In this document: positions 2 to 61,156 of the stretch, one piece after another | Position numbering within the stretch: the first letter of the stretch is position 1 | Layout: every line of letters begins with the position of its first letter | Assembly: GCF_000331105.1 (NCBI RefSeq) | Contig: NC_020054.1 | Span: forward strand, 2,512,813 to 2,576,812 | Origin: Fibrella aestuarina BUZ 2 | GTDB lineage: Bacteria; Bacteroidota; Bacteroidia; Cytophagales; Spirosomataceae | Reading direction: 5' to 3' | Length of the DNA stretch: 64,000 bases | Notes under the pieces: generated by a model | Told to the model about the DNA's origin: nothing | Database searches by the model: none | The model's input: the letters and a program-made list of their open reading frames with translations, nothing else | Translations under genes and position numbers: made by a program

Positions 2-355
2 GAACTGCTCGGTCGCCTGCCCGTGCTGACGCACCTCGACGCCCTCGACCGCGACGCGCTCTACCGCATCCTGACCGAGCCGAAGAACGCTATCACGAAG
101 CAGTATGATAAATTATTTGCGATGGATGATGTAAAAGTTATTTGGGATGATTCGGCCCTGAATTACGTCGTCGATCAGGCCATGGTTTTTAACCTCGGTG
201 CCCGTGGTTTGCGCTCCATTTGCGAGTCGATTATTACCGACGCCATGTTTGAAATGCCCTCGCAAACGGGCGAAAAAACGCTGATTATCACCCACGAATA
301 CGCTTCTGAGAAGTTCGGCCGCACGGCCGTGCAACAACTACGGCAGGCTGCCTGA
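2..355 (+). CDS. clpX: ATP-dependent Clp protease ATP-binding subunit ClpX (C-terminal part)
   Basis: This is the last ~117 residues of ClpX; the gene starts before the window. ClpX is the cytosolic AAA+ unfoldase that feeds substrates to ClpP. The visible part runs from the end of the AAA+ large domain (ELLGRLPVLTHLD) through the sensor-2 region with the motif GARGLRSICE to the small C-terminal domain and the family's typical ending 'TDAMFEMPS'. The arginine of GARGLR is the conserved sensor-2 residue. The N-terminal zinc-binding domain and Walker motifs lie outside the window. A perfect 19-bp inverted repeat follows the stop. The family call is secure. Confidence 0.95.
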   Translation, partial: ELLGRLPVLTHLDALDRDALYRILTEPKNAITKQYDKLFAMDDVKVIWDDSALNYVVDQAMVFNLGARGLRSICESIITDAMFEMPSQTGEKTLIITHEYASEKFGRTAVQQLRQAA

Positions 356-12326: not shown

Positions 12327-12353
12327 TATACATGTTTCATTATTCACTTTTCA

Positions 12354-46387: not shown

Positions 46388-46790
46388 GGTGCTCTGCTGG
46401 TTACCTGGTTGGCGATTTCAGTGGGTGCGGCTGCTGGATTCCTGAAGCGGAAGGTTGTTTTTTACGCCCGTCCTCAGGACAAGTGTTTAAATGTAGTGAC
46501 ATAGGATAGCTTCAGAAAGAGGGAAATAAGGACAAAACAGGTATATTGACAGGAGTAGAAGTGCGCAAACGTTTGTACAAGGCTGAACAAACGTTTGTCT
46601 AAACCCAATCTTTTTGGGTTGACGCTACCTGACGATCAAACACGGCTCGCACCGTGACCGGGACCGCCTACGTCAAGCTGGGTTAGCAAGCGGTGCGTGC
46701 TGAAACGTACCACCGCTTCGTTAATCGGGTACCTGACGGCGCGTGGCCCGATCGATCAGCCCTGTTTTTTGTATTGACTGTTGACCGTTG
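46388..46790. other. 403-nt divergent control region of GH20 and lacI
   Basis: There is no gene here. The region holds the twin operator at 46565-46598, 177 nt from the GH20 start and 192 nt from the lacI start, and a weak CGCACCG/CGGTGCG inverted pair near 46648/46691. Promoters for both genes must lie here. Confidence 0.7.
46565..46598. promoter_or_regulatory. Twin LacI-family operator, copy 1 (GH20/lacI)
   Basis: GCAAACGTTTGT (46565-46576) and the perfect palindrome ACAAACGTTTGT (46587-46598) are separated by 10 bp. The central AACGTT-type palindrome with flanking C/G is typical for LacI/CcpA-family operators. The same 34-bp architecture occurs at 56492 and 61123. Confidence 0.85.
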
Positions 46791-47801
46791 ATGAAAGAAG
46801 CCGTTACGATAAAAGCGATTGCCCGTCAATTGAGAATCTCACCCTCTACGGTCTCGCGGGCCCTCCAGGATAATCCCCGGATTAGTCAGAAAACCCGTGA
46901 TGCGGTCCAGGAATTGGCGACTCAGTTACGCTATACACCCAGCCAGACGGCCCGCAACCTGCGCAGTGGCCGGACCGGGGTTTTTGCCATGGTGCTGCCG
47001 GAGATCCGGGAAAGCTTTTTCTCGGAAACCGTGAATGGGGTGGAGGAACTGGCCTTTCTGCATCATTACAGCGTCGCCCTGTACCAGTCGCACGATTCGT
47101 ATGAGCGGGAAAAGCAGATTCTGTCCAGGCTGACGCGCAATCAGGTCGACGGGGTGATGCTCTCGGTGGCGAAGGAATCGCAGCAGTTTGTGCACATTCA
47201 GGACCTGATCGACCGGGGCGTGCCAACGGTTCTGTTTGACCGCATTGCGCCGGGGATCAACACGCATCAGGTGTCGTGCGACATTGAAAAAGGGGCTTAC
47301 GAGGCTACCAAATGGCTGGCTGGCCGGGGTTTTCGACGCATCGCGCTGCTCAACGGCCCCTATCAACTGGTAGCCAGTGAAGATCGGTACCGGGGCTACG
47401 TGAAAGCGCTCATCGACGAAAAGCTGCCCGTTGAAAATGCCCTCATCAAACGGGTCGATTTGACGACCGACGACACGTTCCAGAAAATGGGGCAGCTCAT
47501 CAACCTGGAGCACCGGCCGGATGCCGTACTGACCTTCAACGATTACGTGGCGCTGGATGCCATGCAGGCCACCCGGAAACAGGGGTTGCGCGTCAATGAG
47601 GAGATTGCCTTCGTCAGCTTCGCAAACCTGCCGCTGACGGCCTACATGGATCAATCACCGCTTGCCTCCGTTGAGCAGCATCCTTACCAGATCGGGCACG
47701 AAGCGGTTGACATTCTGCTGAACCTGATGGCGCTCAAGGAAGACCACACCACGGATCCGTTTGCGTGCGTGACGCTGGAACCGAAGCTGGTGATTCGGTA
47801 G
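46791..47801 (+). CDS. LacI-family transcriptional regulator
   Basis: A 336-aa DNA-binding repressor or activator. The helix-turn-helix is TIKAIARQLRISPSTVSRAL near residues 6-25, followed by the hinge helix RYTPSQTARNLRSGRTGVFA. The periplasmic-binding-protein-like sensor domain (FAMVLPEIRESFFSETVNGV, QVDGVMLSVAKESQQFVHI, EHRPDAVLTFNDYVALDAMQ) extends to the end. The start is the ATG three bases after an in-frame TTG. It lies between GH20 and the SusC/SusD operon and is divergent from GH20. The twin operator at its own promoter and two more copies at neighbouring operons make it the probable regulator of the amino-sugar locus. Confidence 0.92.
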   Translation: MKEAVTIKAIARQLRISPSTVSRALQDNPRISQKTRDAVQELATQLRYTPSQTARNLRSGRTGVFAMVLPEIRESFFSETVNGVEELAFLHHYSVALYQSHDSYEREKQILSRLTRNQVDGVMLSVAKESQQFVHIQDLIDRGVPTVLFDRIAPGINTHQVSCDIEKGAYEATKWLAGRGFRRIALLNGPYQLVASEDRYRGYVKALIDEKLPVENALIKRVDLTTDDTFQKMGQLINLEHRPDAVLTFNDYVALDAMQATRKQGLRVNEEIAFVSFANLPLTAYMDQSPLASVEQHPYQIGHEAVDILLNLMALKEDHTTDPFACVTLEPKLVIR

Positions 47802-47840
47802 ACGTGAGGCTAGTGTACGTCAGCAAAAGCGGGCGCTCCG

Positions 47841-50800
47841 TCATCTGTTCAGCCGGAACGTGCGAACGGGCTGGTCAATTCCACCGACCAGCAAGGTGGT
47901 GTGGTTGGCAACCAGCAGCGTGACCATGTCCCGAATGTCGCCGTCCCACAGCAGCCCCGCCTGGGCCATGGGTACGTACCTGAACTGGCCTTTCCCCCGG
48001 TTGATAAACAACTGCCCCCGGTTGGCGTCGCTTTTGCCGATCCGAACGCGGTTATACGTCCGGTTGCCACCCAGGATAAGGTCAGGCAGGCCATCGCGGT
48101 CGACATCGGCCGTGGCCATGGCGTATACCGGGGTCATCTGCGCCTCGATTGGCAAGGGCTGAACCCGAAAACGCGGGGCCTTTGAACTGCCATCGTTCAG
48201 GAAAAGCACGGTCTGCAACTGCGCGGCGTCGAGTTGGTGCGCCTGCTTCAGTTCGGCGGGGCTGAACAGGTCGGCAACGGTGGCTTTGGCGTAGGACGTA
48301 TAATCAGTAAATTTCTTTCGGAGCGTCACGACCTGATCGAGCATTTCGTCGCGGGCGTTGAACGGATACAGATTGGCCGCTGCGTTGCCCGTGGTTTCGT
48401 AGTCGGCCAGAATGGGTAACACCGTCCCCGCCGCCGTGTTGATGCCGTACAACCGCAACGGGTACGTCGCCGAAGCGCTCAACTGGCTGTTCAGTCCCGC
48501 GTTTGCCGCAACGATGTCCAGGTCCTGATCGCCGTCCAGATCCTGCACAAGCAGTCGGTTCCAGCAGCCGGTGGTGCCGGGGATACCGCCCATGGGTTGC
48601 AGTGTGTTGCCCACGAAGCGAAAAGCCTGCACTGCCCCGAAATCCGTTGTCAGTATCAGTTCGGGGCGGTTATCGCCAGTCAGGTCGGCAAAAACGGCGT
48701 CGGTAACCATCCCAACGGTGGTCAGTACTGGCTGGCTGCCGGGTACGTCCGAGAAGTGGCCGTGGCCGTCGTTGAGCAGCAGGTGGCTGGTGGGTCGGTC
48801 GGGGTAGCGACCGGGCACAACGCGCGCGCCAATGAACAAATCCTGATCCCCGTCGGCGTCGATGTCGGCCGCCCGCACGCAGGAAGCACTGACCCGCACA
48901 TCGGGGAAATCCGTTGCTCTCGTAAGCCGCCCCGTGCCGTCGTTGCGGTACAGGCGCGTTTGCAGGCGTAGGTCGGTGGCGGTCAGTTCATAACCGGCGC
49001 TGGCTACCACCAGGTCGAGGTCCCGGTCGCCGTCGGCATCGAACCAAGCGGCACCGGCATCTTCGTAACTTCGGTCGTTTAGCAAAGCGGGCTGAGCAAG
49101 CGGCGAAAACTGGCCGTTGCGCTGGAGCAGCGTTTGGCCGCCCCGCCCCCGGCTACCACCCACCCAAACATCCGCCTGCCCGTCGCCGTTCAGGTCGCCC
49201 ACGGCAAAATGGGGGCCTGTGGCCGAGAGCATATAGGGGAGTAGCGGCTGATTCTTGAAGTCGTTGACCGTATCTTCCCGACTCACCACGTTCAGCCCCG
49301 TTGCCCGTTGCCAGTAAGGGGCTGAGGCGCTTACCGGCTGCTCGCTGGCCGTGGGTACGTATCGGATCGTGAGTGACCCGGCTGGCTGAGGCCCGATACG
49401 CTGGCTTCGGCCATCGGCCCAGCGCACGTGAATCGAGTCGACCCGCGCTGCCTTGCCCAGACCGAACAGGAGCGGGCCGTACATCGCCGACTGAAACCCC
49501 CGCACCGGCATAAACTCCTGCAACTGCTGGCGCTGCCCCGCCCACACGCTCACCCGCGCGCCCATCAGTTGGGCAGGATTGGGGCTTTTCAGGTGGATCG
49601 TGAGGGTGTGGTGCTGGCTCAGTTTGTCCGTGTGGTTTTCGTAAATACCCGCCTCTGCGTTGACATTGTTCACCACCAGGTCCAGGTCGCCGTCGTTGTC
49701 GAGGTCGGCGTAGAGCGCGCCGTTCGACTGGGTAAGCTCGTTCAGGCCCCAGGCGGTGGTTTCGTTCGTAAACGTCAGTTGGCCCGTGTTGCGGAAGATG
49801 TAATTGGGTTCATTGATGCTCGGCATCTGGGCAATGACCGCCATCGGATCGGCCCGAGCGCCGGTCTGGCGCGCTTTGAGTTGCTCGTCCATCGTAAACT
49901 TCAGGAATTCCATGTTCGTGTAGTCGCGGGCGTAGCCGTTGGTCACGAACAGGTCTTTCCAGCCGTCGTTGTCGAAGTCGGCAAAAAGCCCGGCCCAACT
50001 CCAGTCGGTATTGGAAATGCCCGCCAACTGCCCGATTTCCGAGAATACCGGAATGGCCGCTGCTGCCGACGTACCCACGGGCGCGGTGGTGCTGGCTTCC
50101 TGCCCGACGTTCAGTTGCAGCATATTGCGCATGGTCTGGTGGTGAAACCCCGCCCGAAGCAACTGCGCGTATTTGTCGTAATTGTCGTCGCCGGCCGTCA
50201 GTTTGATGCGCTCGTTCCGTTCGGGGAGCATGTCGAGCGTCAGCAGGTCGACCCGCCCATCGTTGTTGATATCGGCGGCATCGGACCCCATCGAGTAAAG
50301 CGACGTGTGGCCCATCGACGACCGGATGGTTTCGCGAAACGTCCCGTTCTGCTGGTTGATGTACAGGTAATCGTTTTCGTTGTAGTCGTTCGACACGTAC
50401 AGGTCGAGCCACCCGTCGTTGTTGACGTCCGTAGCCGCCACGGCGAGGCCAAAACTCAGCACGTTGGCGACCAGGCCCGCCGCCGCCGACACATCGACAA
50501 ATTTTCCTTGTTGGTTCTGGTAGAGTTTACTCGTATAGTTGGGGTTGGTCTGCTGCTTATACTGGCCGATCAGCCGACTGAATCCGGCGTATTCCTGCAC
50601 GGAATGGTTCAGCAGAAAACAGTCGAGGTCACCATCGCGGTCGTAATCGAAAAAGGCGGCCTGGGTTGAATAAGCCGGATCGGCAAGGCCGTATTCGGCT
50701 GCTTTCTCCGTAAACGTCGGGGAGCCACCCGGCGTGGTTTTGTTGTTGATAAAGAGCAGGTTGCGGCGGAGCCTGGCGTCGGTGGCCGCCGACCGGCAAA

Positions 50801-51194
50801 CGTACAGGTCGAGCCAGCCATCGGCGTTGATGTCCACCACCGAGACGCCCGTATTCCACCCGTCGGCGGCGGCTACCCCGGCTTTGTCGGTGATATCTTC
50901 GAACGTGATCGCCCCCGACCCCGGCTCGGTTTGGTTCAGGTACAGCCTGTTGGGGTTCAGGTTACCGGTAAAGTACAGGTCGGTCAGGCCATCGTTGTTA
51001 AAGTCGCCCGCTGCCACGCCGCCGCCGTTGTAGAAATAGCCATATTTCAGCACGTTGAAATCCGGCGCTTCCTCAAGCGCATTCGTGAATGTAACCCTGG
51101 TCTGAGACGACGGTAGCTTCTCGAAAACGGTATCGTCGTGCGTGCAGGCCGACACCAACAGGGCCGCCGCGACCAGGCATAGGAATGTCTTCAT
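47841..51194 (-). CDS. FG-GAP/VCBS-repeat lipoprotein with ASPIC/UnbV domain (CRTAC1-like)
   Basis: A 1117-aa surface lipoprotein. The signal peptide has lipobox LLVSAC followed by THDDTVFE (acidic residues after Cys, as in surface-exposed Bacteroidota lipoproteins). Many FG-GAP/VCBS repeats with Ca-binding DxDxDG-like loops follow: GGVAAGDFNNDGLTDLYFTG, VVDINADGWLDLYVCR, ALYADLDNDGDLDLVVNNVN, VQDLDGDQDLDIVAANAGLN. The ASPIC/UnbV domain (KSPNPAQLMGARVSVWAG) is near the middle. Such proteins follow SusC/SusD pairs in many Cytophagales loci and may bind glycans; the function is not established. A hairpin separates it from susD. Confidence 0.88.
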   Translation of the reverse strand: MKTFLCLVAAALLVSACTHDDTVFEKLPSSQTRVTFTNALEEAPDFNVLKYGYFYNGGGVAAGDFNNDGLTDLYFTGNLNPNRLYLNQTEPGSGAITFEDITDKAGVAAADGWNTGVSVVDINADGWLDLYVCRSAATDARLRRNLLFINNKTTPGGSPTFTEKAAEYGLADPAYSTQAAFFDYDRDGDLDCFLLNHSVQEYAGFSRLIGQYKQQTNPNYTSKLYQNQQGKFVDVSAAAGLVANVLSFGLAVAATDVNNDGWLDLYVSNDYNENDYLYINQQNGTFRETIRSSMGHTSLYSMGSDAADINNDGRVDLLTLDMLPERNERIKLTAGDDNYDKYAQLLRAGFHHQTMRNMLQLNVGQEASTTAPVGTSAAAAIPVFSEIGQLAGISNTDWSWAGLFADFDNDGWKDLFVTNGYARDYTNMEFLKFTMDEQLKARQTGARADPMAVIAQMPSINEPNYIFRNTGQLTFTNETTAWGLNELTQSNGALYADLDNDGDLDLVVNNVNAEAGIYENHTDKLSQHHTLTIHLKSPNPAQLMGARVSVWAGQRQQLQEFMPVRGFQSAMYGPLLFGLGKAARVDSIHVRWADGRSQRIGPQPAGSLTIRYVPTASEQPVSASAPYWQRATGLNVVSREDTVNDFKNQPLLPYMLSATGPHFAVGDLNGDGQADVWVGGSRGRGGQTLLQRNGQFSPLAQPALLNDRSYEDAGAAWFDADGDRDLDLVVASAGYELTATDLRLQTRLYRNDGTGRLTRATDFPDVRVSASCVRAADIDADGDQDLFIGARVVPGRYPDRPTSHLLLNDGHGHFSDVPGSQPVLTTVGMVTDAVFADLTGDNRPELILTTDFGAVQAFRFVGNTLQPMGGIPGTTGCWNRLLVQDLDGDQDLDIVAANAGLNSQLSASATYPLRLYGINTAAGTVLPILADYETTGNAAANLYPFNARDEMLDQVVTLRKKFTDYTSYAKATVADLFSPAELKQAHQLDAAQLQTVLFLNDGSSKAPRFRVQPLPIEAQMTPVYAMATADVDRDGLPDLILGGNRTYNRVRIGKSDANRGQLFINRGKGQFRYVPMAQAGLLWDGDIRDMVTLLVANHTTLLVGGIDQPVRTFRLNR

Positions 51195-51210
51195 ACCATT
51201 CGTAAAAAGT

Positions 51211-51240
51211 CGGCAGCGGACGATGCATCGTCCGCTGCCG
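51211..51240 (-). terminator. Perfect 30-bp palindrome between susD and the FG-GAP gene
   Basis: CGGCAGCGGACGATG and its complement meet without a true loop at 51211-51240; on the minus strand ACTTTTTACG follows. It lies between co-directional genes, so it is probably a partial terminator that lowers expression of the downstream gene. Confidence 0.75.
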
Positions 51241-51266
51241 CGACCTGTTTAGCAAGATACCCTTCG

Positions 51267-52820
51267 TTAGTTCTTATCCCACCAAAGGGGCGTCGTCACT
51301 TTGTCGGGGCCGTTCAGCAATGCTGCCCCTTTGGTAGCTTCGGCGGTGTTGGTCTGCTGCTCGATGAGCAGAATCGGAATCCGGCGCAAGACGCCCCCGG
51401 CCGGAATGTCTGGATTGTCGGAGTTGACGACCGGATACAGTTTGGGGTAGCGCGTCCGGCGGTATTCGGCCCAGCCTTCAAACCCGTCGGGGAAGAGCGC
51501 CAGCCATTTCTGGGTGCCGATCTGCTCCCGCTGAATAGCCTCGGTGCTGCCCCAGGCGACGGGTATGTTGCTCAACGGTGCCGATTTCAGGTAGTCGTTC
51601 GGAGCCACGGGCGTTTTGGTGCTGCTCTGATAGGCCGTGATCGCCGCCGCATCCGTTACGCCCCACTGCTTCATCGAGTTCTCGATGCCCTTGTTGTAGA
51701 AATCCTTCGCCGTGCCGCCCATGTTCCAGCCGTTCAGCGCGCCCTCGGCCCGCAGGAAGTACGACTCGGCGGTTGCCATGACGTTCTGCGGCGTTTCCAG
51801 ACCGGTCGAGGTCCAGCGCTGGCCAACGTGCGAGTTGTAATCGGCGGTGTTGACGGGGTCGGTCAACTGCGTCGAGGTCAGGCCGTTGCGTAAGCCTTCG
51901 TATGACTTGGTCTTGACAGCGGGCAGAAAGTACGTACCTATGCGCGGGTCGTCGTAACCTTTCAGCACCGACTCCATGGCGGCGCTCATTCGAAACTCGT
52001 TCCAGTCTGACATGATCGACAGACCATTGCCGTCGTCGCCTTTGGTGCTGCGTGAAACGAGCGCGTCGTCGGTGGGGCTATTCGTGAGCACCCCGCCCGC
52101 CACTGCGGCTTCAGCCTCGGCTTTGGCGCGGGCGGGGTCCGCTTTGGAGATGCGGAGCGCCAGCCGGAGCCGGAGGGTGTTGGCAAACATGATCCATTTG
52201 TTGACATCGCCTTTGTAGACCAAATCGTAGTTGCCGTAGGGCGTTTCAGAGACTTTGCCTTTCAGGACCGCCGTGGCGGCAGCCAGTCGCTTAAAGAAGT
52301 CGTCGTAGATTTTATCCTGCGCGTCGTAGGCGACCGCCGTGGCGGGCTCACCCGCTTTGAAATACGGGATAGGGCCGATGTAGTCTGTCCAGCGGTGAAA
52401 CGAATACACCCACCAGATACTGGCCAGCGCGTATTCGGCCGAGCTGGGGTCGGTGCTGCTCATGATTGTTTTCAACTGCGGCACGACTTCCGTGTATTGT
52501 TGGGTCCAGGGCCCCTGAAGCCAGTCCATCCGAATCACGAACCGATCGGAGGGGAAATACGTGGCGACGCAGGCGAAATACTGGGCGTACTGATCGGAAA
52601 ACAGGTTCTGCCCAACCTGGTAGGTCCATTGGCTCAGCGGCGCGGCTGACTGCGCTTTGGAGAACAGGTACGGAATCTCGGATTTACCAATGACCGTGAT
52701 TTTGGTCTGGTTGGTGTTGATCTGGTCAAACTTATCCGTGCAACCTGCTGCCAGCCAGAGCGATGTGGCGAGGCAGCTTCCTGCCAGCGTTCGTAAAACG
52801 ATTGTTTGATACAAGGCCAT
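51267..52820 (-). CDS. susD: SusD/RagB-type nutrient-binding lipoprotein (SusD-like 2)
   Basis: A 517-aa outer-membrane lipoprotein that caps the SusC channel and binds oligosaccharide. The lipobox LWLAAGC is followed by TDKFDQINTNQTK, characteristic of the SusD_2 group. Helical repeats contain ASIWWVYSFHRWTDYIGPIP, NKWIMFANTLRLRLALRIS, SYFLRAEGALNGWNMGGTA and the C-terminal PDGFEGWAEYRRTRYPKLYP and GGVLRRIPI. It starts 21 nt after the susC stop, the usual arrangement. In this locus chitin- or N-glycan-derived oligosaccharide is the expected ligand, by inference. Confidence 0.93.
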   Translation of the reverse strand: MALYQTIVLRTLAGSCLATSLWLAAGCTDKFDQINTNQTKITVIGKSEIPYLFSKAQSAAPLSQWTYQVGQNLFSDQYAQYFACVATYFPSDRFVIRMDWLQGPWTQQYTEVVPQLKTIMSSTDPSSAEYALASIWWVYSFHRWTDYIGPIPYFKAGEPATAVAYDAQDKIYDDFFKRLAAATAVLKGKVSETPYGNYDLVYKGDVNKWIMFANTLRLRLALRISKADPARAKAEAEAAVAGGVLTNSPTDDALVSRSTKGDDGNGLSIMSDWNEFRMSAAMESVLKGYDDPRIGTYFLPAVKTKSYEGLRNGLTSTQLTDPVNTADYNSHVGQRWTSTGLETPQNVMATAESYFLRAEGALNGWNMGGTAKDFYNKGIENSMKQWGVTDAAAITAYQSSTKTPVAPNDYLKSAPLSNIPVAWGSTEAIQREQIGTQKWLALFPDGFEGWAEYRRTRYPKLYPVVNSDNPDIPAGGVLRRIPILLIEQQTNTAEATKGAALLNGPDKVTTPLWWDKN

Positions 52821-52841
52821 AAAAGCGAAAGAGATGTCGGA

Positions 52842-55800
52842 TTAGAAGGAAAGTTTCAGGTTCGCGCCCAGGCTGCGGTTGGAAGGCAGGGTGCCGTATT
52901 CAACTCCCTGGAAGTTGCCGTTGCCCATGTTGACGTCGGGGTCAAACCACATGGTGCGTTTGCCAACGCCGGGAATATCCAGAAGGGATTTGCCGCGGTA
53001 TAACCAGAACAGGTTGCGCGCTACGAACGACAGTTGCGCCGATTTGATGAATAAGCTTGAGGGGACCGGAATCCGGTAGCCGATTGACAACTCACGCACG
53101 CGGAAGTTGGTCGCATCGTAGGCGAAAAACTCGCCCCAGCCGTAGCGTTTCCCCGACACGGTCTGCCAGAACTTCTCGGCGTTGATGGCCGTTGCATTGG
53201 TCTTGCCAGCACCGATCAGCGTTGATCCATCGGCCCCGGATACCCCCGCCGTAATGCCCGGCAACACCCAATTGCCTGCCCGGTTGATGGCCGTAGCCTC
53301 CGGTATGCCACTGAAAGCCAGGTTCATTTCGGTACCCGACACGGCAATGCCACCTACCCGTCCGTCGATCAGCAAGCGCACAGAGAGGGGGCCGAACGTA
53401 AACGTATTGGTCAGCCCCAGGATCGCTTTCGGGTTAAAATTGCCGATGTATTCCTGGTTTTTGGTGGCAACGGGCAGTCCCGTCGACACAACCGACGCCT
53501 CGGTTACGTTGGTGGAGGTCGATTGTGAAGCGATCAGAAACTGCCCTGTCGACGGATCGCGCTGCCAACGATACGACAGCATATCGCCGTAGGAACCGCC
53601 TTCTGCCACCACCGGAGAGGCCGCCCGGCCATAGCCCCCCGCCAGGAAGGCCTGCTTGACGTCGGGCGCCAGACTCAGAATTTTGTTCCGGTTCATGCCG
53701 AAGTTGAACGCCACATCCCACCCGAACCGATCGGTCTTGATGGCCGTGCCGTTGATGACCACTTCAAGGCCCATGTTGCGGATGTCGCCCGCGTTGATGT
53801 ACTGGTTGCTGAAGCCCGATGCTGGCGCCAGACCCAGCTTGAGCAATTGGTTGATGGAGTTGGTTTTATAGGCCGTAATCGTGGCGCCCAGTCGGTTGCT
53901 CAGGAAGCGCACATCGACCCCCAGTTCTATGCTCCTGGTGATTTCGGGCTTCAGATTCCCGATGGCCTGGGTACCGTCGCGGCTGATGAAGCCGTTGCCC
54001 GCCCCCTGGCTGTAGGAATAGTTGGTCTGCAGCAGATACGGGCTGGCACCGTTACCAACCTGCGCATACGAGGCGTTCAGTTTCAGAAACGACACGGGTC
54101 CGCTCATCTTCAGCAGGTCGGAGAGCACCACCGATGCCCCCACGGAAGGGTATTGGAACGAGTAGGGGGCGGGCAGTGTCGAGGTCCAGTCGTTGCGCAG
54201 GCTGGCATTCAGGAAAATGGCATCGCGCCAGGCCAATGAGGCTGATCCGAACAACGACTGGGTCTGCGAACGCGAGAAGTCATCGCCGAGCGTCTGGTTG
54301 GTGCCGAAGTTCAGGTTAAACCGGTTGGGCAGGTTCAGGCCATTGGCAATCGCGTTCGTCGACTGGTAGCGGCTGTCCTGGATGATACCACCCGCCTGAT
54401 AGTCGAGGGTGAGGTCGGCCCCAAATCGGTTTTTGCCTTCGATCAGCAGATCGTACCAGGTTTGCGTAGTGACGATGTTGTTGCGGTTGAAATAGCCTCC
54501 CGGCTGGCTCGCCCACAGGATCGTGCCCTGCGAGTAGCTCTGCTCGTTCTTGTCGAAATACTTGTCGAGGTTGGCGCGGCCCTGAATGCTGAGGAAATCC
54601 AGTAGCTGGTATTTGGCCGACACAAACCCCATCACCCGATCCCGGTACTGGTTGATGGCCGTCTGGTTGACCATCCAGTAGGGGTTCTGATAAATCGAAT
54701 TCAGCGTTGAAGGCCAGGCGGTCGGAACGGTCTGCCCGACGTTATTGGTCGTCGCGTAGGTCTGCGCATTTGCCAGATTCACGTTACGTGGAATCTGATA
54801 CAGGTCGATCACCGGTGAGTTTTCTTCCCCCGTGCGCGGCTTGTTCAGCACTGACTGGTTGATGTACGTCACCTTGGCATCCGTCGACAGTTTTGAACTG
54901 ATCTGGTTCGACAGCCGCAGGTTGATGGTATGCCGGGTCAGGTCGTTGTTGGGGACAGTCCCCTGCAAGGAGTTGTTGGTATACGACAGGTACGTCTGCG
55001 AACGCTCGGTGCCGCCCGTGATGCCAATCGAGTTGTTGAGGCTGACAGCCGTGCGGAAGAAATCGCGGATGTTGTTGGGCTGTGCCGAATACGTATCCTG
55101 CTTATCCAGGTAATTCTTGTACGATTGTCCGGTCATCGCGGCCCCCCAGCTATCGCCTTTCTCGGGGTTCAGCACGCCGCCAACGCCCTGCCCGTAGGTG
55201 TTCTGCACAGTGGGCAGCGCAAACGGCTTATCCACCGCCACGCCGGAATTGATGTCGACAGAAACCCGGCCCGCCTTACCCCGTTTGGTGGTGATCAGGA
55301 TGACCCCGTTGGCGGCCTGACTGCCGTATAAGGCGGCGGCCGAGGCACCCCGCAGCACCGTTATGTTCTCGATGTCGTCGGGGTTGATGTTGGAGGCCCC
55401 ATCGGCATTGGCCACGCTCCCGAAGTCGCTGGTTACCTGCCCGTAGGTGTCGTTGTTAATGGGAACACCATCCACCACCATCAGGGCATTGTTGGTGCCC
55501 TGAATAGACCGGTTGCCGCGCAGCACAATGCGGGAGCCGGTGCCAGGCCCGCCCGACCCCTGGGTAATGTAAGCACCGGCGATTTTTCCCTGTAAGGTGT
55601 TCAGCACGTTGGCATCGCGCACCTCGTTGATCTGACCCGGTCTGATCGTCTGGGTGGCGTAGCTCAAGGCTTTGGCTTCCCGCTTGATACCCAGGGCCGT
55701 CACCACAACCTCTTCCAACTGCCGGTCATCGGCTACCAGCGTGATGGTCACCTGCGTCTGCCCGGCGGAGAGGGGTACGTCTTTAGCAATGTAGCCAACG

Positions 55801-56024
55801 GAAGACACCGTTAACACCGCATTGTCATCAGGAAGGCTCAACCTGAATTGGCCATTGGCGTCGGTGCTGGTGCCGCGTGAGGTGCCTTTGATGAGTACGT
55901 TGGTGCCGGCAATGGCCTGCGACTGATCATTGAGTACAACGCCGGTCAGTTGCCTGTTCTGAGCCCAGGACGGGCCCGCAAAGGCAGCTACCAGTAACAT
56001 ACAGCAGAGTAAGCATCTTGTCAT
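52842..56024 (-). CDS. susC: SusC/RagA-type TonB-linked outer-membrane transporter
   Basis: A 1060-aa TonB-dependent transporter. Signal peptide MTRCLLCCMLLVAAFAGPSW, carboxypeptidase-regulatory domain (LTGVVLNDQSQAIAGTNVLI ... GYIAKDVPLSAGQTQVTITL), then the SusC signature EEVVVTALGIKREAKALSYA, the plug (DANVLNTLQGKIAGAYI, GSRIVLRGNRSIQGTNNALM, NPDDIENITVLRGASAAALY, GSQAANGVILITTKRGK) and a 22-stranded barrel. It forms a pair with SusD. A 467-nt leader separates its start from the nearest twin operator. The transported glycan is inferred from neighbouring GH20 and NagB. Confidence 0.94.
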   Translation of the reverse strand: MTRCLLCCMLLVAAFAGPSWAQNRQLTGVVLNDQSQAIAGTNVLIKGTSRGTSTDANGQFRLSLPDDNAVLTVSSVGYIAKDVPLSAGQTQVTITLVADDRQLEEVVVTALGIKREAKALSYATQTIRPGQINEVRDANVLNTLQGKIAGAYITQGSGGPGTGSRIVLRGNRSIQGTNNALMVVDGVPINNDTYGQVTSDFGSVANADGASNINPDDIENITVLRGASAAALYGSQAANGVILITTKRGKAGRVSVDINSGVAVDKPFALPTVQNTYGQGVGGVLNPEKGDSWGAAMTGQSYKNYLDKQDTYSAQPNNIRDFFRTAVSLNNSIGITGGTERSQTYLSYTNNSLQGTVPNNDLTRHTINLRLSNQISSKLSTDAKVTYINQSVLNKPRTGEENSPVIDLYQIPRNVNLANAQTYATTNNVGQTVPTAWPSTLNSIYQNPYWMVNQTAINQYRDRVMGFVSAKYQLLDFLSIQGRANLDKYFDKNEQSYSQGTILWASQPGGYFNRNNIVTTQTWYDLLIEGKNRFGADLTLDYQAGGIIQDSRYQSTNAIANGLNLPNRFNLNFGTNQTLGDDFSRSQTQSLFGSASLAWRDAIFLNASLRNDWTSTLPAPYSFQYPSVGASVVLSDLLKMSGPVSFLKLNASYAQVGNGASPYLLQTNYSYSQGAGNGFISRDGTQAIGNLKPEITRSIELGVDVRFLSNRLGATITAYKTNSINQLLKLGLAPASGFSNQYINAGDIRNMGLEVVINGTAIKTDRFGWDVAFNFGMNRNKILSLAPDVKQAFLAGGYGRAASPVVAEGGSYGDMLSYRWQRDPSTGQFLIASQSTSTNVTEASVVSTGLPVATKNQEYIGNFNPKAILGLTNTFTFGPLSVRLLIDGRVGGIAVSGTEMNLAFSGIPEATAINRAGNWVLPGITAGVSGADGSTLIGAGKTNATAINAEKFWQTVSGKRYGWGEFFAYDATNFRVRELSIGYRIPVPSSLFIKSAQLSFVARNLFWLYRGKSLLDIPGVGKRTMWFDPDVNMGNGNFQGVEYGTLPSNRSLGANLKLSF

Positions 56025-56244
56025 AAAAAAGTGCGAGTAAAATGGGTGAAGAGATTCAGAAAAGGGTGTGGGTTAAGCGGAAAAGTAGCGGGTTTGGGTG
56101 AGCGTTTCTATCGCTTGAAAAGGCGCGAATCAGGGACTATAATAAATCGGATTGTCAGGCATATTTTTGGGTTATAGCACCTGGCCAATTCGCCAGAAAG
56201 CAACTGAGCTGTGTACGGCACCAAGACGTTGGTTTCAGCAGGAG

Positions 56245-56258
56245 TGCCGTATACGGCA
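56245..56258. promoter_or_regulatory. 14-bp perfect palindrome in the susC leader
   Basis: TGCCGTATACGGCA is self-complementary, unlike the LacI-type sites, and is followed by a T-rich run on the plus strand. It may bind another regulator or form an RNA structure in the leader. Confidence 0.35.
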
Positions 56259-56491
56259 TCATATTTTTTTGGTCGCTTGTGAACGCCTTTTTCGGCCGTT
56301 TCCTGAAACCTGTCGGAGTGCCCTTCCACCAGTTAGCCTGCGCACGTATTAGTGCTGAATGATACGCGGGTTTTTGAACTAAATCAGCGCGTTGTGTTTC
56401 GTTTAAAACCCGATGAAAGTTATTGAAAGTAAGGCGATTAGTGCGTTGTATCGTGCAGGGTCAGACGTTAAAATAGCCTTAATTATGTTGC

Positions 56492-56525
56492 ACAATCGTT
56501 TGCATAAGTTTGTGCAAACGATTGT
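56492..56525. promoter_or_regulatory. Twin LacI-family operator, copy 2 (susC)
   Basis: ACAATCGTTTGC (56492-56503) and GCAAACGATTGT (56514-56525) are exact reverse complements separated by 10 bp, so the entire site is one large inverted repeat. Architecture is identical to copies 1 and 3. Confidence 0.82.
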
Positions 56526-56680
56526 ATAAAGCTTAAGAAAAATGACTTTTTAGCACGGCGATAGGCTGCGACGAGCTTAGCAGCTTCAGACGAGGTTGAC
56601 GAAGGTCATTGGTTGGTATAATTCACTTCGTCGCACGGCCGATGAAATAAAGGGATAAGCGCAGGTAGCGGTAAAAAGAA

Positions 56681-56703
56681 AACGCCACTCATCGGAGCGG
56701 CGC
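56681..56703 (-). terminator. Terminator hairpin downstream of nagB
   Basis: AACGCCACTC and GAGCGGCGCTT pair with one mismatch around a short ATCG loop; T-rich sequence follows on the minus strand. It lies about 250 nt past the nagB stop. Confidence 0.55.
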
Positions 56704-56954
56704 TTTGCCTAATTGCATAAACCTAATTGCTAATCGGTATCGTTATTGCCTAGCAAATGCCAGGATTTTCAGGCGTATTTTCTACGCTTGCCCGCCTCGT
56801 TTTCTGAGTTAGCGGCATCGGTGCAGATGGCGACAAGGTGGCCGGGCTAACGGGGAGGTGTCTGGTAGGGTAGAAACCAGCCAAGATTTCGCCTAGATTT
56901 AGTGACCATGTTGAAACCATTGTTCTACTGACTGTTGGCGATGGTGCAGCTGGC

Positions 56955-58895
56955 TTACAGAAAGTGGTAGCGAACGAAGGCTTCCATCGCGGCATAATCG
57001 GCCAGCCCCAACTGGTTGTAAAGGGCGGCGGTATCGCGGTTGCGGTCTTCGGCCCGTTGCCAGAATTCGCGGGCGTCGTTGCCCTGAAACACAACGCCAT
57101 CTTTCTGCGACTGATGCTTGAAAATGCCGTATCGCTTCTGTAACACCTGCTCCGGCGACATCGGTACGGCCATTTCAATCTCGTGAATACCCCATTCGGC
57201 CCAGGCGCCCCGGTACAGCCATACCCAGCAATCCTGCATATAGGTCTCGTGTTTCAGCTGTTGTAGCGCCGCGAAAATGCCATCCAGACATACTTTATGC
57301 GTGCCGTGTGGGTCGGCCAGATCACCCGCTGCGTAAAGCTGATGCGGCCGAATCCGGGCAATCAGGTCGGCAATGAGGCGGATGTCGTCCGCACCAATCG
57401 GGTTTTTCTCAATGCGACCTGTCTCGTAGAAAGGCAGGCTCAGAAAATGGGCGTTCTCGGTCGGGATACCCACAAACCGGCACGTATTTTTTGCCTCGCC
57501 CCGTCGGATCAACCCTTTGACTTTTCGGACGGCATCGGGGTCCTGCTCCGAGGCTTTCTTGGTTTCCAGCGCCCGCTTCGCCTCCGAAAAGAGCGTGTCA
57601 ATCGCAGTGGCTTCGATGCCAAACTGCTGCTTGAAGTCGACCACAAACTCCAGAAACCGCAGGGCTTCATCGTCGGCTACGGCGATGTTGCCCGACGTCT
57701 GGTAGGCCACGTGTACCTCGTGACCCTGATCGACCAGCCGTTGGAACGTACCGCCCATCGAAATAATATCGTCGTCGGGATGAGGGCTGAAAAGCAACAC
57801 CCGTTTTCGGGCCGGTTGGGAGCGCTCAGGCCGGTTCGTATCGTCGGCGTTTGGTTTGCCGCCCGGCCAGCCCGTAATGGTGTGCTGCAACCAGTTGAAC
57901 ACTAGTATGTTGATGTCGTAGGCTCGCCCATGCTGCGCCAGCAGATCGCTCAAGCCGTGCTCGTTGTAATCACTATTGGTCAGTTTCAGCACGGGCTTGT
58001 TGAGGCTGAGCGCCAGTTGCGTCACGGCCTTCTTGATGAGCGTGGGTGTCCAGGTAACCGCATCGAATAGCCAGGGCGTTTTCTGGATCGTCAGTTCCGA
58101 GGCGCCCGCTTCATCGACAATGATGGTCGCGTTTGGGTGCGTTTGCAGGTAAGAGGCCGGTAGCAGTTCTGAAACGGGACCTTCAACGGCGCGTTGCAGA
58201 ATCGTGGCTTTGTGCTCACCCCAGGCCAGTAAAACGATACGTTTCGCCGCCAGAATGGTGCGTATCCCCATCGTAATGGCTCGTTTGGGCACCTGCGCCA
58301 GCCCCCCGAACTCAGCGGCCGCATCGGCCCGCGTCAAGAAATCGAGTGTAATCAGCCGCGTGGTCGACTGCTGATGGGAGCCCGGTTCGTTGAAGCCAAT
58401 GTGGCCGTTTCGGCCAATGCCCAGTAACTGAAAATCCAGCCCGCCCACATCCTGAATTTTTTGTTCGTAGTCGGCACAATACGCTTTGAGGTCGTCGGCT
58501 GGCAACGTACCTGTGGGGATATGAATGTTTTCCGGACTGATGTCAACGTGGTCAAACAGATGCTCGTGCATGAAGCGGTGGTAACTTTGCAAGGCATCCG
58601 GCTGAATCGGGTAATACTCATCAAGATTAAACGTGATGACCCGCCGAAAGCTCAAGCCTTCCTCACGATGCAGACGAATTAACTCGGCATACACTTTTTT
58701 GGGCGATGAACCGGTGGCCAGCCCCAGCACAGTCCAGTCGCCGGTTCGCTGGTGGCTAACGATCAGGTCGGCGATCTCCTGCGCAACAGCTTTCGACGCC
58801 AGATCGGCAGTCGGGTAGAGTTGCAGCGGCACCCGTTCGAAAGAGAGGGTAACTGGCGCGGTAGCCGTGGCTAAAGAGGGTTGCGAATAAGTCAT
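56955..58895 (-). CDS. nagB: Glucosamine-6-phosphate deaminase fused to a PIG-L/LmbE deacetylase domain
   Basis: A 646-aa two-domain cytosolic protein. Residues ~20-300 are NagB (GlcN-6-P to Fru-6-P plus ammonia): LGLATGSSPKKVY near 57, TFNLDEYY (Asp92) and GIGRNGHIGFNEPG with His165 and Glu170. The residue that is Asp141 in E. coli NagB is Asn163 here. Residues ~365-640 are PIG-L/LmbE-like: FSPHPDDDIISMGG (zinc ligands at 372-376) and DPHGTHK (His530, His533). PIG-L enzymes remove N-acetyl groups from GlcNAc-containing compounds, so the fusion could deacetylate and deaminate in sequence. Such fusions are known in Bacteroidota. Last gene of a three-gene operon, 8 nt after the nucleotidyltransferase stop. 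Confidence 0.88.
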   Translation of the reverse strand: MTYSQPSLATATAPVTLSFERVPLQLYPTADLASKAVAQEIADLIVSHQRTGDWTVLGLATGSSPKKVYAELIRLHREEGLSFRRVITFNLDEYYPIQPDALQSYHRFMHEHLFDHVDISPENIHIPTGTLPADDLKAYCADYEQKIQDVGGLDFQLLGIGRNGHIGFNEPGSHQQSTTRLITLDFLTRADAAAEFGGLAQVPKRAITMGIRTILAAKRIVLLAWGEHKATILQRAVEGPVSELLPASYLQTHPNATIIVDEAGASELTIQKTPWLFDAVTWTPTLIKKAVTQLALSLNKPVLKLTNSDYNEHGLSDLLAQHGRAYDINILVFNWLQHTITGWPGGKPNADDTNRPERSQPARKRVLLFSPHPDDDIISMGGTFQRLVDQGHEVHVAYQTSGNIAVADDEALRFLEFVVDFKQQFGIEATAIDTLFSEAKRALETKKASEQDPDAVRKVKGLIRRGEAKNTCRFVGIPTENAHFLSLPFYETGRIEKNPIGADDIRLIADLIARIRPHQLYAAGDLADPHGTHKVCLDGIFAALQQLKHETYMQDCWVWLYRGAWAEWGIHEIEMAVPMSPEQVLQKRYGIFKHQSQKDGVVFQGNDAREFWQRAEDRNRDTAALYNQLGLADYAAMEAFVRYHFL

Positions 58896-58903
58896 GAGGA
58901 GCT

Positions 58904-59779
58904 TTAAAGAGCGACGTGATACTGGTTGGCGAGATACTCCTGCACCACTTTCAGGTCCGTTTTACTGGTCAGGTCAGGTACGTGTTCGGCGAGCGGGATC
59001 GTGTAAAACCCCTGTCCGTATTGCTGCCCATACAGGCTGACGGCGGTGGGCAATTCTTTCTCGTTACGAACCGGGTGAAAGGGCGTTGCTTCCAGAATGG
59101 GCAGCATAGTAGCGGCTTCCATCACGAACAGATTCATGCTGACGCCCAGTCGGCCCTGCGACGCCAGTACCGCTTCGGCTTCGTCGTCGGTTGGCTTCTC
59201 GATGATCTCTTCCAGAAAACCATCAGGGTCGGTCTTAATGAGCGCAAACGCTTTGATTCGGTCGATGGGAAATGCCAGCGCATCCCGATCGTAACTGATC
59301 AGTGCGTTCGGGTGGGACGATTCCCAAAGCGTTTTCAAGGCCGTGACGGAGTATAAGTTATCGCTGTTGCAGACCACCAACCGCCCCGTCTGCCAGTCTG
59401 GATGTTGCTTGAGGGCCTGGTATACGGCATCGGCCGTACCAGCCGGTTTCTGCCGGTCGGGCGGGATCAGCTGCCGGGCAAACCGAAACGTCATGTTCCA
59501 GAGCTGATCGGTTTCGGCCAACCGCTCGTAGTAGTCCTGCGTGACCGTGTCGGTTGGATGCAGTAGCAGGAGAACGTCTGTAAAACCCGCCAGATGTGCG
59601 TTGAAGAGCAGGTAGTCGATGAGCGATTTACCCTGTTCCCCGACGCCGATCATTCCCTTGGTGAGCGAATCGGCCTGTTCAAGCAGGGTGGCGTCTACCC
59701 CGACCGGGGCGTCTGAACGTTGTTTCATGCGCGACGAGGCACCCCCCGCCAGAATCAGTAATCGTTTTTTCTCTGCCAT
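58904..59779 (-). CDS. Sugar nucleotidyltransferase (GT-A, MobA-like NTP transferase)
   Basis: A 291-aa nucleotidyltransferase. The N-terminal pyrophosphorylase motif is LLILAGGASSRMKQ (residues ~7-20), followed by GKSLIDYLLFNAHLAGF, the nucleotide-binding KPAGTADAVYQALKQH, VVCNSDNLYS (metal Asp) and EEIIEKPTDDEAEAVL. The normal role is NTP plus sugar-1-phosphate to NDP-sugar. The loop after GGASSRM carries an insertion (KQRSDAPVGVDATLLEQADS), unusual in short UTP-sugar transferases. It lies between the GHMP kinase and nagB; the kinase probably provides its sugar-1-phosphate. Start chosen at the ATG before AEKKRLLILAGG; another in-frame ATG lies 18 nt upstream. Confidence 0.8.
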   Translation of the reverse strand: MAEKKRLLILAGGASSRMKQRSDAPVGVDATLLEQADSLTKGMIGVGEQGKSLIDYLLFNAHLAGFTDVLLLLHPTDTVTQDYYERLAETDQLWNMTFRFARQLIPPDRQKPAGTADAVYQALKQHPDWQTGRLVVCNSDNLYSVTALKTLWESSHPNALISYDRDALAFPIDRIKAFALIKTDPDGFLEEIIEKPTDDEAEAVLASQGRLGVSMNLFVMEAATMLPILEATPFHPVRNEKELPTAVSLYGQQYGQGFYTIPLAEHVPDLTSKTDLKVVQEYLANQYHVAL

Positions 59780-59829
59780 CTTGGGTAAACGGAGCAATAA
59801 GGATTGGTTGAGTAAGTACGTAGCTGGCC

Positions 59830-60945
59830 TCAGGAAACTGACAGGGACGACTGCGGGCTTGGCGTGGGAAGCGCTTCCAGGCGGGTACCTTCGGCCAGTT
59901 GCACGATGAACGCCTCGCCCCCAGCCCGCTCAATGGCTTCGGCAACCTGCTCCGGGGCGTCAGGGGCATAGGCAAACATGCAGCCTCCACCCCCGGAACC
60001 GTTGATTTTACCCCCCAGCGCACCAGCCTCGAGCGCCGCCTCGACCATCCGGTCGATTTTAGGGGTCGATATGCGCTGGGCATCGCGCAGATTCTGGTGG
60101 TGGGCCGTCAGGAGTTTGCCAAACTGCTGATGGTCGAGTGAATCGGCTTCCAGAAGCACCAGCGCCTGCCGAAGAATATCCCGGTTATCGAGGGTACCCG
60201 CCAAGAGGCGCTGCTCATCGGCCGACAGCAGGTGGCGATAGCGCGCTACATCCTGCTGCCCGGCGTGCTGAAGTGAAAAGTCGGGGTTGAGCGCCTGGAT
60301 GCGGGCCACAAGCTGGCGCATCCCGCCTTTGACCCGGCCCAGGATACCGATGGTATCTTTCGGCTGATGCGAATTGCCCAGCACGAACGTACCCAGCTTG
60401 GGATGCAGGGGGCGCAGTTCGGGCGTGGGCGACGTAGCCAGGTAGATAACCTGCCCAACGGCCGTGGCGTAGTGGTCCATCATGCCGCCCGGCTCCCCAA
60501 ATTCCAGTACTTCGGCGCGGTAGGCCAATTCGGCCAGCCGCTGGGGAGAAAGCGTCTGCGGCTTAGCCGCTAGCTGGGTCAGAACATGCAGCCACGTAAC
60601 CAGCAGGGCCGACGAACTGGACGTACCGGCGTTGATGGGAATGTTGCCACGTACCTGCCCCTCGATGCCGCCCGAAAACCGAAAGCCCTCCTGCCAAAGC
60701 ACGTTAAGGGCACTACGGAAATAATCGCGCTGGCGCTGATAGGCTAACGGCGCTGTCGTAAGCGCGAAACATACTTCGGTGCCCAGGTCGGGCAAGTGCA
60801 ACTGGACGTAGGGGGCCGAGGTCGCCCGGGCCGTCAGTTGGATCCGGCAGGAAATGGCGGCGGCAATGATGGGCATACCCAGGTAATCCTGGTGTTCACC
60901 AAACAGGCAAATGCGGCCAGGCGTTGAAGCAGTTACGGAGATCAC
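59830..60945 (-). CDS. GHMP-family sugar kinase (galactokinase-like)
   Basis: A 371-aa cytosolic kinase. The galactokinase-type signature is PGRICLFGEHQDYLG at 9-23, the ATP loop PINAGTSSSSA at 103-113, GMMDHYA with probable catalytic Asp157, and motif 3 GGKINGSGGGGC at 311-322. This fits anomeric (C1) sugar kinases such as GalK, GalNAc kinase or related kinases. Its place in an operon with a nucleotidyltransferase and NagB-PIG-L, under the same operators as GH20 and SusC/D, suggests an N-acetylhexosamine or amino sugar as substrate; that is an inference. First gene of the operon, with the twin operator 177 nt upstream. Confidence 0.85.
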   Translation of the reverse strand: MISVTASTPGRICLFGEHQDYLGMPIIAAAISCRIQLTARATSAPYVQLHLPDLGTEVCFALTTAPLAYQRQRDYFRSALNVLWQEGFRFSGGIEGQVRGNIPINAGTSSSSALLVTWLHVLTQLAAKPQTLSPQRLAELAYRAEVLEFGEPGGMMDHYATAVGQVIYLATSPTPELRPLHPKLGTFVLGNSHQPKDTIGILGRVKGGMRQLVARIQALNPDFSLQHAGQQDVARYRHLLSADEQRLLAGTLDNRDILRQALVLLEADSLDHQQFGKLLTAHHQNLRDAQRISTPKIDRMVEAALEAGALGGKINGSGGGGCMFAYAPDAPEQVAEAIERAGGEAFIVQLAEGTRLEALPTPSPQSSLSVS

Positions 60946-61122
60946 ACCAGCGTTGATTAGAACAGATTTTACGGTTTCAGCTCAAATGGCTGCTTGACAG
61001 GTCTCTACATGCCGCATCGGCGGCTGTGTAGGAACCTGAGTGAGGGCAAACTACGCGACAATGCATGGCCTTCGGAAGCACCAACAGGCGGCTCGAACCG
61101 AAAACCGAGGCGTTTTCTGCTG

Positions 61123-61156
61123 ACAAACGTTTGCGCATCCCTACGCTAACGTTTGC
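61123..61156. promoter_or_regulatory. Twin LacI-family operator, copy 3 (GHMP kinase operon)
   Basis: ACAAACGTTTGC (61123-61134) and GCTAACGTTTGC (61145-61156) separated by 10 bp. Distance to the kinase start is 177 nt, the same as between copy 1 and the GH20 start. Confidence 0.83.

Follow-up and report, generated by a model that had tools for sequence, protein, structure and literature searches.

Twin LacI-type operators and a predicted, dispersed N-acetylgalactosamine regulon in Fibrella aestuarina

Twin operators in the window and across the genome

We analysed a stretch of 64,000 nucleotides from the genome of Fibrella aestuarina BUZ 2 (hereafter the window, corresponding to C2:2512813-2576812 in a genome of two contigs and 6,937,263 bp), in which three twin operators, each made of two 12-bp palindromes with a 10-bp spacer and none assigned to a strand, stand next to glycan-related genes and a gene for a LacI/GalR-family regulator. 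Operator 1 (46565..46598) is located between the divergent genes for a glycoside hydrolase family 20 (GH20) beta-N-acetylhexosaminidase (44345..46387, minus strand; PF00728, 8.2e-102), its predicted target, and for the regulator (lacI; 46791..47801, plus strand). Operator 2 (56492..56525) has the gene for the TonB-linked outer-membrane transporter SusC (52842..56024, minus strand; TIGR04056) downstream, and operator 3 (61123..61156), whose second half-site is CTAACGTTTG, is followed by the operon of a GHMP-family sugar kinase (59830..60945, minus strand). The 10-bp cores, of the form CWAWCGWTTG, start at 46566/46588, 56493/56515 and 61124/61146 with centres 22 bp apart, and in a scan of the window these six half-sites were the only exact cores of the twin type. 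Three sites of this architecture at these positions had been proposed in an initial annotation made from the sequence; our scan confirmed their cores, and the gene annotation of the window confirmed that they lie upstream of GH20/lacI, susC and the GHMP-kinase operon.

The genes behind the operators were annotated as follows. After susC come the gene for a SusD-like outer-membrane lipoprotein (51267..52820, minus strand; PF12741) and that for an FG-GAP/UnbV-ASPIC repeat protein (47841..51194, minus strand), which is found beside susCD in the two Fibrella relatives too. The GHMP kinase carries a galactokinase signature and is predicted to be an N-acetylgalactosamine (GalNAc) kinase; its best matches are galactokinases, with weaker matches to the human-type GalNAc kinase. 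A nucleotidyltransferase-like protein (58904..59797, minus strand) is of the sugar-1-phosphate type by weak family matches and had no match in the PDB at E≤0.001. A fusion of NagB (glucosamine-6-phosphate deaminase) with a PIG-L deacetylase (56955..58895, minus strand; NF002557, 1046 bits against a cut-off of 384) follows kinase and nucleotidyltransferase and thus unites deaminase and deacetylase domains in one protein. The open reading frame of lacI was listed from TTG 46788, and ATG 46791 is the more likely start.

A search of the whole genome with the 22-bp twin pattern returned four places without mismatch, namely the three window sites and C2:790517, and two further places with one mismatch, C2:6453262 and C2:6618291. 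A spacer one base shorter yielded an additional twin site with one mismatch, C2:5035274, whose centres are 21 bp apart. The reversed pattern, used as a control, gave no match at up to one mismatch; at up to three mismatches, the true pattern matched 9 times in forward and 7 times in reverse orientation, compared with 2 and 4 for the control. The genome holds at least six sites rather than the three of the regulon first proposed, and five of the six 22-bp sites at up to one mismatch, as well as the 21-bp site, face glycan genes. The site at C2:790517 precedes genes for a glycoside hydrolase family 109 (GH109) protein and a second GHMP kinase, the one at C2:6453262 precedes GH109–SusC–SusD–DUF5077/DUF3472, and the one at C2:5035274 precedes SusC–SusD–M60 peptidase–GH29 α-L-fucosidase. 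GH109, SusC/D, kinase (of predicted specificity) and M60 peptidase genes are therefore all found behind twin sites in this genome, spread over four regions with six operators, each region having at least one of them.

C2:6618291 (L020:9292-9323) was rejected as a member of this set. Its neighbours are metH and a Ppx/GppA gene, whose likely ATG follows 9 nt after the site; it has two mismatches in one reading and no −7-like box (see below) at 70 nt towards either of them. The rejection is a judgement and not a proof, and the match is probably due to chance.

The spacing of the half-sites is rigid. In 188 kb of the own genome, comprising the window and seven other stretches, we counted seven pairs of half-sites (each at up to one mismatch, 11-120 bp apart), six of them at 22 bp and one at 21 bp. 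In 893 kb of loci from genomes with an orthologue of the regulator, the same count gave 50 pairs, 47 at 22 bp and one each at 21, 70 and 72 bp. Hence 7/7 own pairs and 48/50 pairs from orthologue loci are 21-22 bp apart, the count covering paired half-sites. The central CG is constant in both halves of all 29 aligned promoters, the sites having been picked with a pattern that contains it.

Co-occurrence of regulator and operator in relatives

At 337 amino acids, the regulator is similar in length to the PurR and CcpA chains that it matched, and its domains place it in the LacI/GalR family (N-terminal helix-turn-helix PF00356, 43.4 bits with a cut-off of 27; periplasmic-binding-type sensor domain PF00532, 89.3 bits, and PF13377, 86.3 bits). 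Its closest solved homologue by sequence is CcpA (5.5e-45). We searched 200 genomes of the same family, whose named members include Spirosoma, Rudanella, Larkinella and Fibrella, for orthologues (best LacI match at E<1e-120, corresponding to ≥59% identity) and for the twin pattern at up to one mismatch. A twin site was present in 34 of the 36 genomes with an orthologue and in 6 of the 164 without (Fisher 8e-30); of the two orthologue genomes that had no such 22-bp site, G016 and G174, the former has a 21-bp site. Shared ancestry may inflate these counts and weighs against taking them at face value. Since kinship inflates the overall P value, the split within a single genus (g5), in which 13/13 genomes with the orthologue and 0/21 without it have the site, is the cleaner evidence.

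The site also adjoins its presumed regulator. Among the 35 relatives with the orthologue, 24 have the site directly between lacI and GH109, and of these 24 loci, 16 contain the full order GH109–SusC–SusD–DUF3472–GHMP, four contain GH109 and the kinase only, and four have no kinase in the stretch covered, which in two cases stops at a contig end. Genus g20 shows the order lacI–GHMP–nucleotidyltransferase–GH109, with separate SusCD and GH20 sites elsewhere, and its loci L132-L136 carry a more diverged twin site, with two mismatches, before GHMP. We infer that the single cluster is an older state than the dispersed one.

Two further observations concern these loci. Of the 24 lacI–site–GH109 loci, 20 encode a DUF5077/DUF3472 protein (L019:15529-16836 and relatives) within the GH109–SusCD cluster, which makes it a candidate GalNAc-glycan protein. 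One contig of genome G091 has two copies, in opposite orientations, of the twin site together with a GH20-like gene (C2:23277 and C2:119001; L100 and L123).

Could the matches be chance occurrences or non-regulatory repeats? Some looser matches do fall in or near non-glycan genes, such as C2:6618291 at the Ppx/GppA start and the likely coding matches L197 and L212. We reject this alternative as extremely improbable because of the control counts and the conserved position and gene content: four exact sites stand against a control that has none at up to one mismatch, the twin site occurs in 40 of the 200 family genomes and a control match in 3, and, of 222 family genomes, a looser pattern matched 47, the matches listed including no control. 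Outside the family, an order-level search matched three genomes (control: one genome), none of them convincing.

Another LacI paralogue, or several regulators with the same PurR-like site, might bind the operators instead, which would then not form one regulon of the local LacI protein. The half-site CAAACGTTTG is a generic LacI-family core, and non-orthologous LacI genes elsewhere (L128, L157, L162, L163, L169, L171, L177) are also near twin sites. Yet the genome yielded three LacI genes in a family search, of which the two besides the present one stand in unrelated neighbourhoods, one beside a GH28/pectinesterase/mannitol-dehydrogenase cluster and one beside a molybdopterin oxidoreductase, with no strict twin site found within 500 bp upstream of either. 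Together with the within-genus split and the position of the site between lacI and GH109, this makes the involvement of other paralogues quite improbable. A dispersed regulon of the local LacI protein, which would itself bind the twin sites, is by contrast very likely on these sequence comparisons, and the amino-sugar regulon under local LacI control that had been proposed at the outset gains support from them.

Distance from operator to −7-like box and mode of control

TAnnTTTG is the −7 consensus of Bacteroidota promoters. Boxes resembling it start 70 nt past each window operator, namely TACATTTA (46488..46495, minus strand) towards GH20, TAACTTTC (56415..56422, minus strand) past operator 2 and TAGTTTG (61047..61053, minus strand) past operator 3. 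A weak and tentative box, TCTTTTTG (46609..46616, plus strand), lies on the lacI side, 11 nt past operator 1. Forty-six sites of the orthologue group, each read in the direction of its target gene, gave 26 promoters after clustering at 50% identity. The −7-like matches counted on the lacI side below come from a set of 36 of the 46 sites, near-identical ones being omitted, and the column analysis covers the 26 representatives plus L132, L133 and L136; L020, L122 (no site), L138 and the non-orthologue loci L124-L130 lie outside these counts.

In 18 of the 26 promoters, a TAN1-2TTT box starts at 69, 70 or 71 nt past the operator (5-nt window 67-71). The mean over all offsets is 0.65, the next best count outside 60-76 is 2, and none of 1000 rotations reached 18. 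All six promoters of the own genome have the box at 69-70 nt, and on the far side of the operator it is found in the same window in 0/26. A column analysis that uses no motif points to the same place: apart from the operator edge itself (offsets 0-3), conservation on the enzyme side is highest at columns 71 (A in 23/29), 74 (T in 27/29) and 75 (T in 27/29), followed by offsets 9 and 86 with 0.50 and 0.54 bits. The stretches between operator and box are unrelated among the six own promoters (mean identity 0.298 compared with 0.265±0.056 after shuffling, and up to 0.42 for GH109a/b), so it is the spacing that is kept rather than the sequence. Start codons follow the operator at anything between about 130 nt (GH109 at C2:790517, counted from its likely ATG) and 468 nt (susC), whereas the box keeps its 69-70 nt. 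The initial annotation had remarked that two window sites lie exactly 177 nt before the start codon; this is true of the two sites and, since the start distance varies while the box distance holds, a coincidence.

On the far side, the 29 pooled promoters, which include window sites 46566, 56493 and 61124, share TTTR at 3-6 nt and an A-rich AAAW at 17-20 nt as conserved elements; these possibly reflect a bend or a contact with the C-terminal domain of the RNA polymerase alpha subunit. We also considered promoter overlap on the enzyme side and rejected it, −7-like boxes not being enriched next to the operator. Nine of 17 orthologue loci have a −7-like match (5 or 6 of 6 positions) that starts 14 nt from the operator towards lacI.

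These features could be explained by the following model. At least six operons in four chromosomal regions would serve the uptake and breakdown of GalNAc-containing glycoproteins and O-glycans under the LacI/GalR protein encoded at 46791-47801, two dimers of which would occupy adjacent positions on the same face of the DNA, 22 bp or two helical turns apart. On the enzyme and transporter side, a box starting near −11 would place the half-site centres near −87 and −109 (near −76 and −98 in the 59-nt class described below), and the regulator would activate the operons on sensing a GalNAc-derived effector. On the lacI side, where the operator in relatives often ends 14 nt before a −7-like box, it would lie over the lacI promoter and cause autorepression. 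The initial annotation had offered two dimers or a tetramer: two dimers on one face agree with the published comparison of LacI regulators (PMC4052901, in its accessible part), and a tetramer is not indicated for a chain of 337 amino acids.

The model as a whole, with its dispersed GalNAc regulon, twin-bound LacI protein and activation, is in our estimation the best explanation and a fairly probable one. Activation taken by itself seems about equally probable, and we favour it because the distance upstream is too great for RNA polymerase to be obstructed and the phasing is that of an activator site. Keeping a fixed helical register is characteristic of activators, and the operators do lie upstream of the core promoter in such a register, provided that the −7-like box is the promoter, as we presume. 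In the accessible sections of a study on Bacillus subtilis, CcpA activates ackA, pta and ilvB from cre sites upstream of −35 in a helix-face-dependent manner, and ackA activation needs sequence upstream of cre too (PMC3463425). CcpA thus resembles the present LacI protein in family and in activation from upstream sites, and the upstream requirement at ackA is comparable to TTTR/AAAW beside the operator; it differs in having a single cre, HPr-Ser-P as partner and mixed positions, as opposed to a twin site at one of two distances (PMC3463425, same sections).

Several points weigh against activation from a fixed distance. Most LacI-family proteins are repressors. Eight of the 26 promoter groups have no box at 67-71 nt (five of these retain a looser A(N)TTT, and three, L110, L097 and L100, do not), no −33 element is conserved among the 29 aligned promoters, and the lacI-side box has the TAN1-2TTT form in only 5 of 12 cases and is weak in the window itself. 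In addition, an upstream CcpA site of B. subtilis represses lev by interfering with the activator LevR (PMC3463425, accessible sections). The same regulon could accordingly be held by LacI as a classical repressor that is freed by a GalNAc-derived sugar and that blocks an unseen activator, forms loops or hinders polymerase from upstream. Repression being the commonest mode of the family, this alternative would fit the lev precedent, the tandem 21-22-bp sites known for the local sugar regulators RafR and ScrR (PMC4052901, accessible part) and the lacI-side box at 14 nt, which suits blocking of the lacI promoter. On the enzyme side, however, the operator ends about 70 nt before the box in the 18 promoters and hence outside the core promoter, blocking does not require a fixed, helically phased distance, and no separate strong motif is conserved between operator and box, where there is one weak column at offset 9. 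We therefore regard repression of the enzyme and transporter operons as possible, though unlikely.

A related geometry appeared at twin sites of other LacI proteins. Among 19 non-orthologue twin sites, a strict TAnnTTTG is found at 58-59 nt in 11 (rotation null 0/1000) and at 69-70 nt in two more (L127 and L128); the 59- and 70-nt classes differ by 11 bp, that is one helical turn. The box is directed away from the neighbouring lacI at L157, L162, L163, L169, L171 and L177. We tentatively suggest that LacI regulators of Spirosomataceae share an activation platform, in which a twin operator (22 bp, two dimers, one face) has its edge 59 or 70 bp upstream of the −7 box. If so, a whole set of them would be class-I-like activators of SusCD and glycoside-hydrolase operons and autorepressors of their own genes.

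There are substantial reservations about this suggestion. The 11 matches at 58-59 nt amount to about eight groups at 50% identity, and the filter against redundancy, being loose, let through pairs of 52-67% similarity (L129/L175, L162/L163 and L157/L162). The 59-nt test was not blind, because 15 of the 19 sites were already in the set where the pattern was first noticed; of the four new ones, two obey the rule. Of ten degenerate sites that were first examined once the rule had been noticed (L197-L201, L211, L212, L215-L217), only L211 does. L197 and L212 look coding, L198 is intergenic, and L199 and L215-L217 overlap open frames and may precede true starts; such overlap is weak evidence, being seen also at operator 3 and at the C2:790517 site. 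The Fibrella twin sites L200 and L201 look genuine, and the box is absent from both at 59 and 70 nt. Upstream of 42 paralogue lacI genes, the strict twin palindrome was found once (1/42), and relaxed patterns found more. As the later, looser sites mostly disobey and cannot all be dismissed as coding, our confidence in a shared platform went from slightly short of even to somewhat below that. Apart from this, L200 (G056 C23:142790) and L201 (G008 C33:251763) represent, in Fibrella relatives, a second twin site of CAACCGTTTG..CAAACGGTTG type that stands between susC and lacI.

Elsewhere in the window, a TamB-like protein of 1707 amino acids is encoded beside an Omp85/POTRA protein (9918-17477, minus strand), and the gene at 24487-26856 (minus strand) encodes a protein of 789 amino acids that has a C-terminal type IX secretion signal and weakly matches Ig-like domains.

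The sugar served and comparison with known systems

A regulon for chitobiose only is countered by GH109, M60 and GH29 at operator-linked loci. These, together with the GHMP kinase, are the reason why the sugar is best read as α-linked GalNAc or O-glycans. GH109 enzymes are NAD-dependent α-N-acetylgalactosaminidases, and Slin_6637 of Spirosoma linguale has α-GalNAc activity that is lost in an H225A variant, according to the accessible part of PMC6521355, which deals with use of the enzyme on red cells and contains nothing on regulation. The GH109 protein of locus L110, whose gene adjoins the twin site there, read from the methionine that gives 435 amino acids, has DLYPTHGLGPV with its histidine at 225, and so shares His225 and its context with the assayed enzyme. 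DLYPTHGLGP is also present in both own GH109 proteins, which weakens this link: the motif is insufficient to identify a protein, and numbering alone connects the L110 protein to the S. linguale enzyme.

A functional parallel is the Bacteroides thetaiotaomicron polysaccharide utilization locus BT4240-50 for mucin O-glycans, which encodes a GH109 α-GalNAcase, an M60-like peptidase, SusC/D and a GalNAc-1-kinase (PMC11992087, accessible part). GH109, M60 peptidase, SusC/D and a sugar kinase are common to both systems. In contrast, the kinase of BT4240-50 is of the APH family whereas GHMP kinases stand next to the sites here, control there is likely by an extracytoplasmic function (ECF) sigma/anti-sigma pair and here by LacI, and BT4240-50 has GH2 where the present system has GH20, GH29 and NagB–PIG-L (PMC11992087, same part). 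With kinases of the GHMP and not the APH family, the present system would work like BT4240-50 without being an orthologous copy. On the basis of GH109 function and of the gene coupling in BT4240-50, we predict that the GHMP kinases act on GalNAc.

The proposed regulon would serve GalNAc and O-glycan use in free-living Bacteroidota, its layout fitting an activator better than the usual LacI blocker and its content suggesting that an environmental bacterium uses GalNAc-rich glycoproteins. Co-regulation suggests functions for the uncharacterised GHMP kinase, nucleotidyltransferase and DUF3472/DUF5077 proteins, and the regulon may also help to find α-GalNAc-acting enzymes such as those tried for blood-group-A conversion. 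The promoter rule that it offers is a twin operator, 59 or 70 bp and a −7 box. Regulation of Bacteroidota glycan loci is mostly discussed in terms of SusR, hybrid two-component systems and ECF sigma/anti-sigma pairs. The listings from our searches of open-licence papers contained no account of a GalNAc regulon under LacI control in Bacteroidota or of a fixed operator-to-−7 distance, and little on LacI-type glycan control in Bacteroidota outside Bacteroides. In its accessible part, a paper on B. thetaiotaomicron regulons assigns LacI regulators to uronates in a table and gave no match for GalNAc (PMC3878776).

In the published comparison of LacI regulators, distances between sites peak at 13, 22 and 32 bp, and RafR of Enterobacteriales and ScrR of Burkholderiales have only double sites, which were taken to indicate obligatory cooperative binding of two dimers (PMC4052901, accessible part). 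RafR/ScrR sites and the present operators have in common paired even palindromes with a central CG, centres 21-22 bp apart and a sugar regulon as context. That comparison also predicts a positive or negative mode from site position for another LacI-type regulator, PckR. It samples Bacteroidetes by one group, Bacteroides, and counts site positions from start codons; its accessible part reports no fixed −7 distance and no 59/70-bp register (PMC4052901). E. coli PurR resembles the present regulator in its half-site CAAACGTTTG and in protein length; it differs in being a purine repressor with single sites. Collectively, twin LacI operators with a spacing of 21-22 bp are already known from RafR and ScrR, and what is new here is their fixed distance to a −7-like box.

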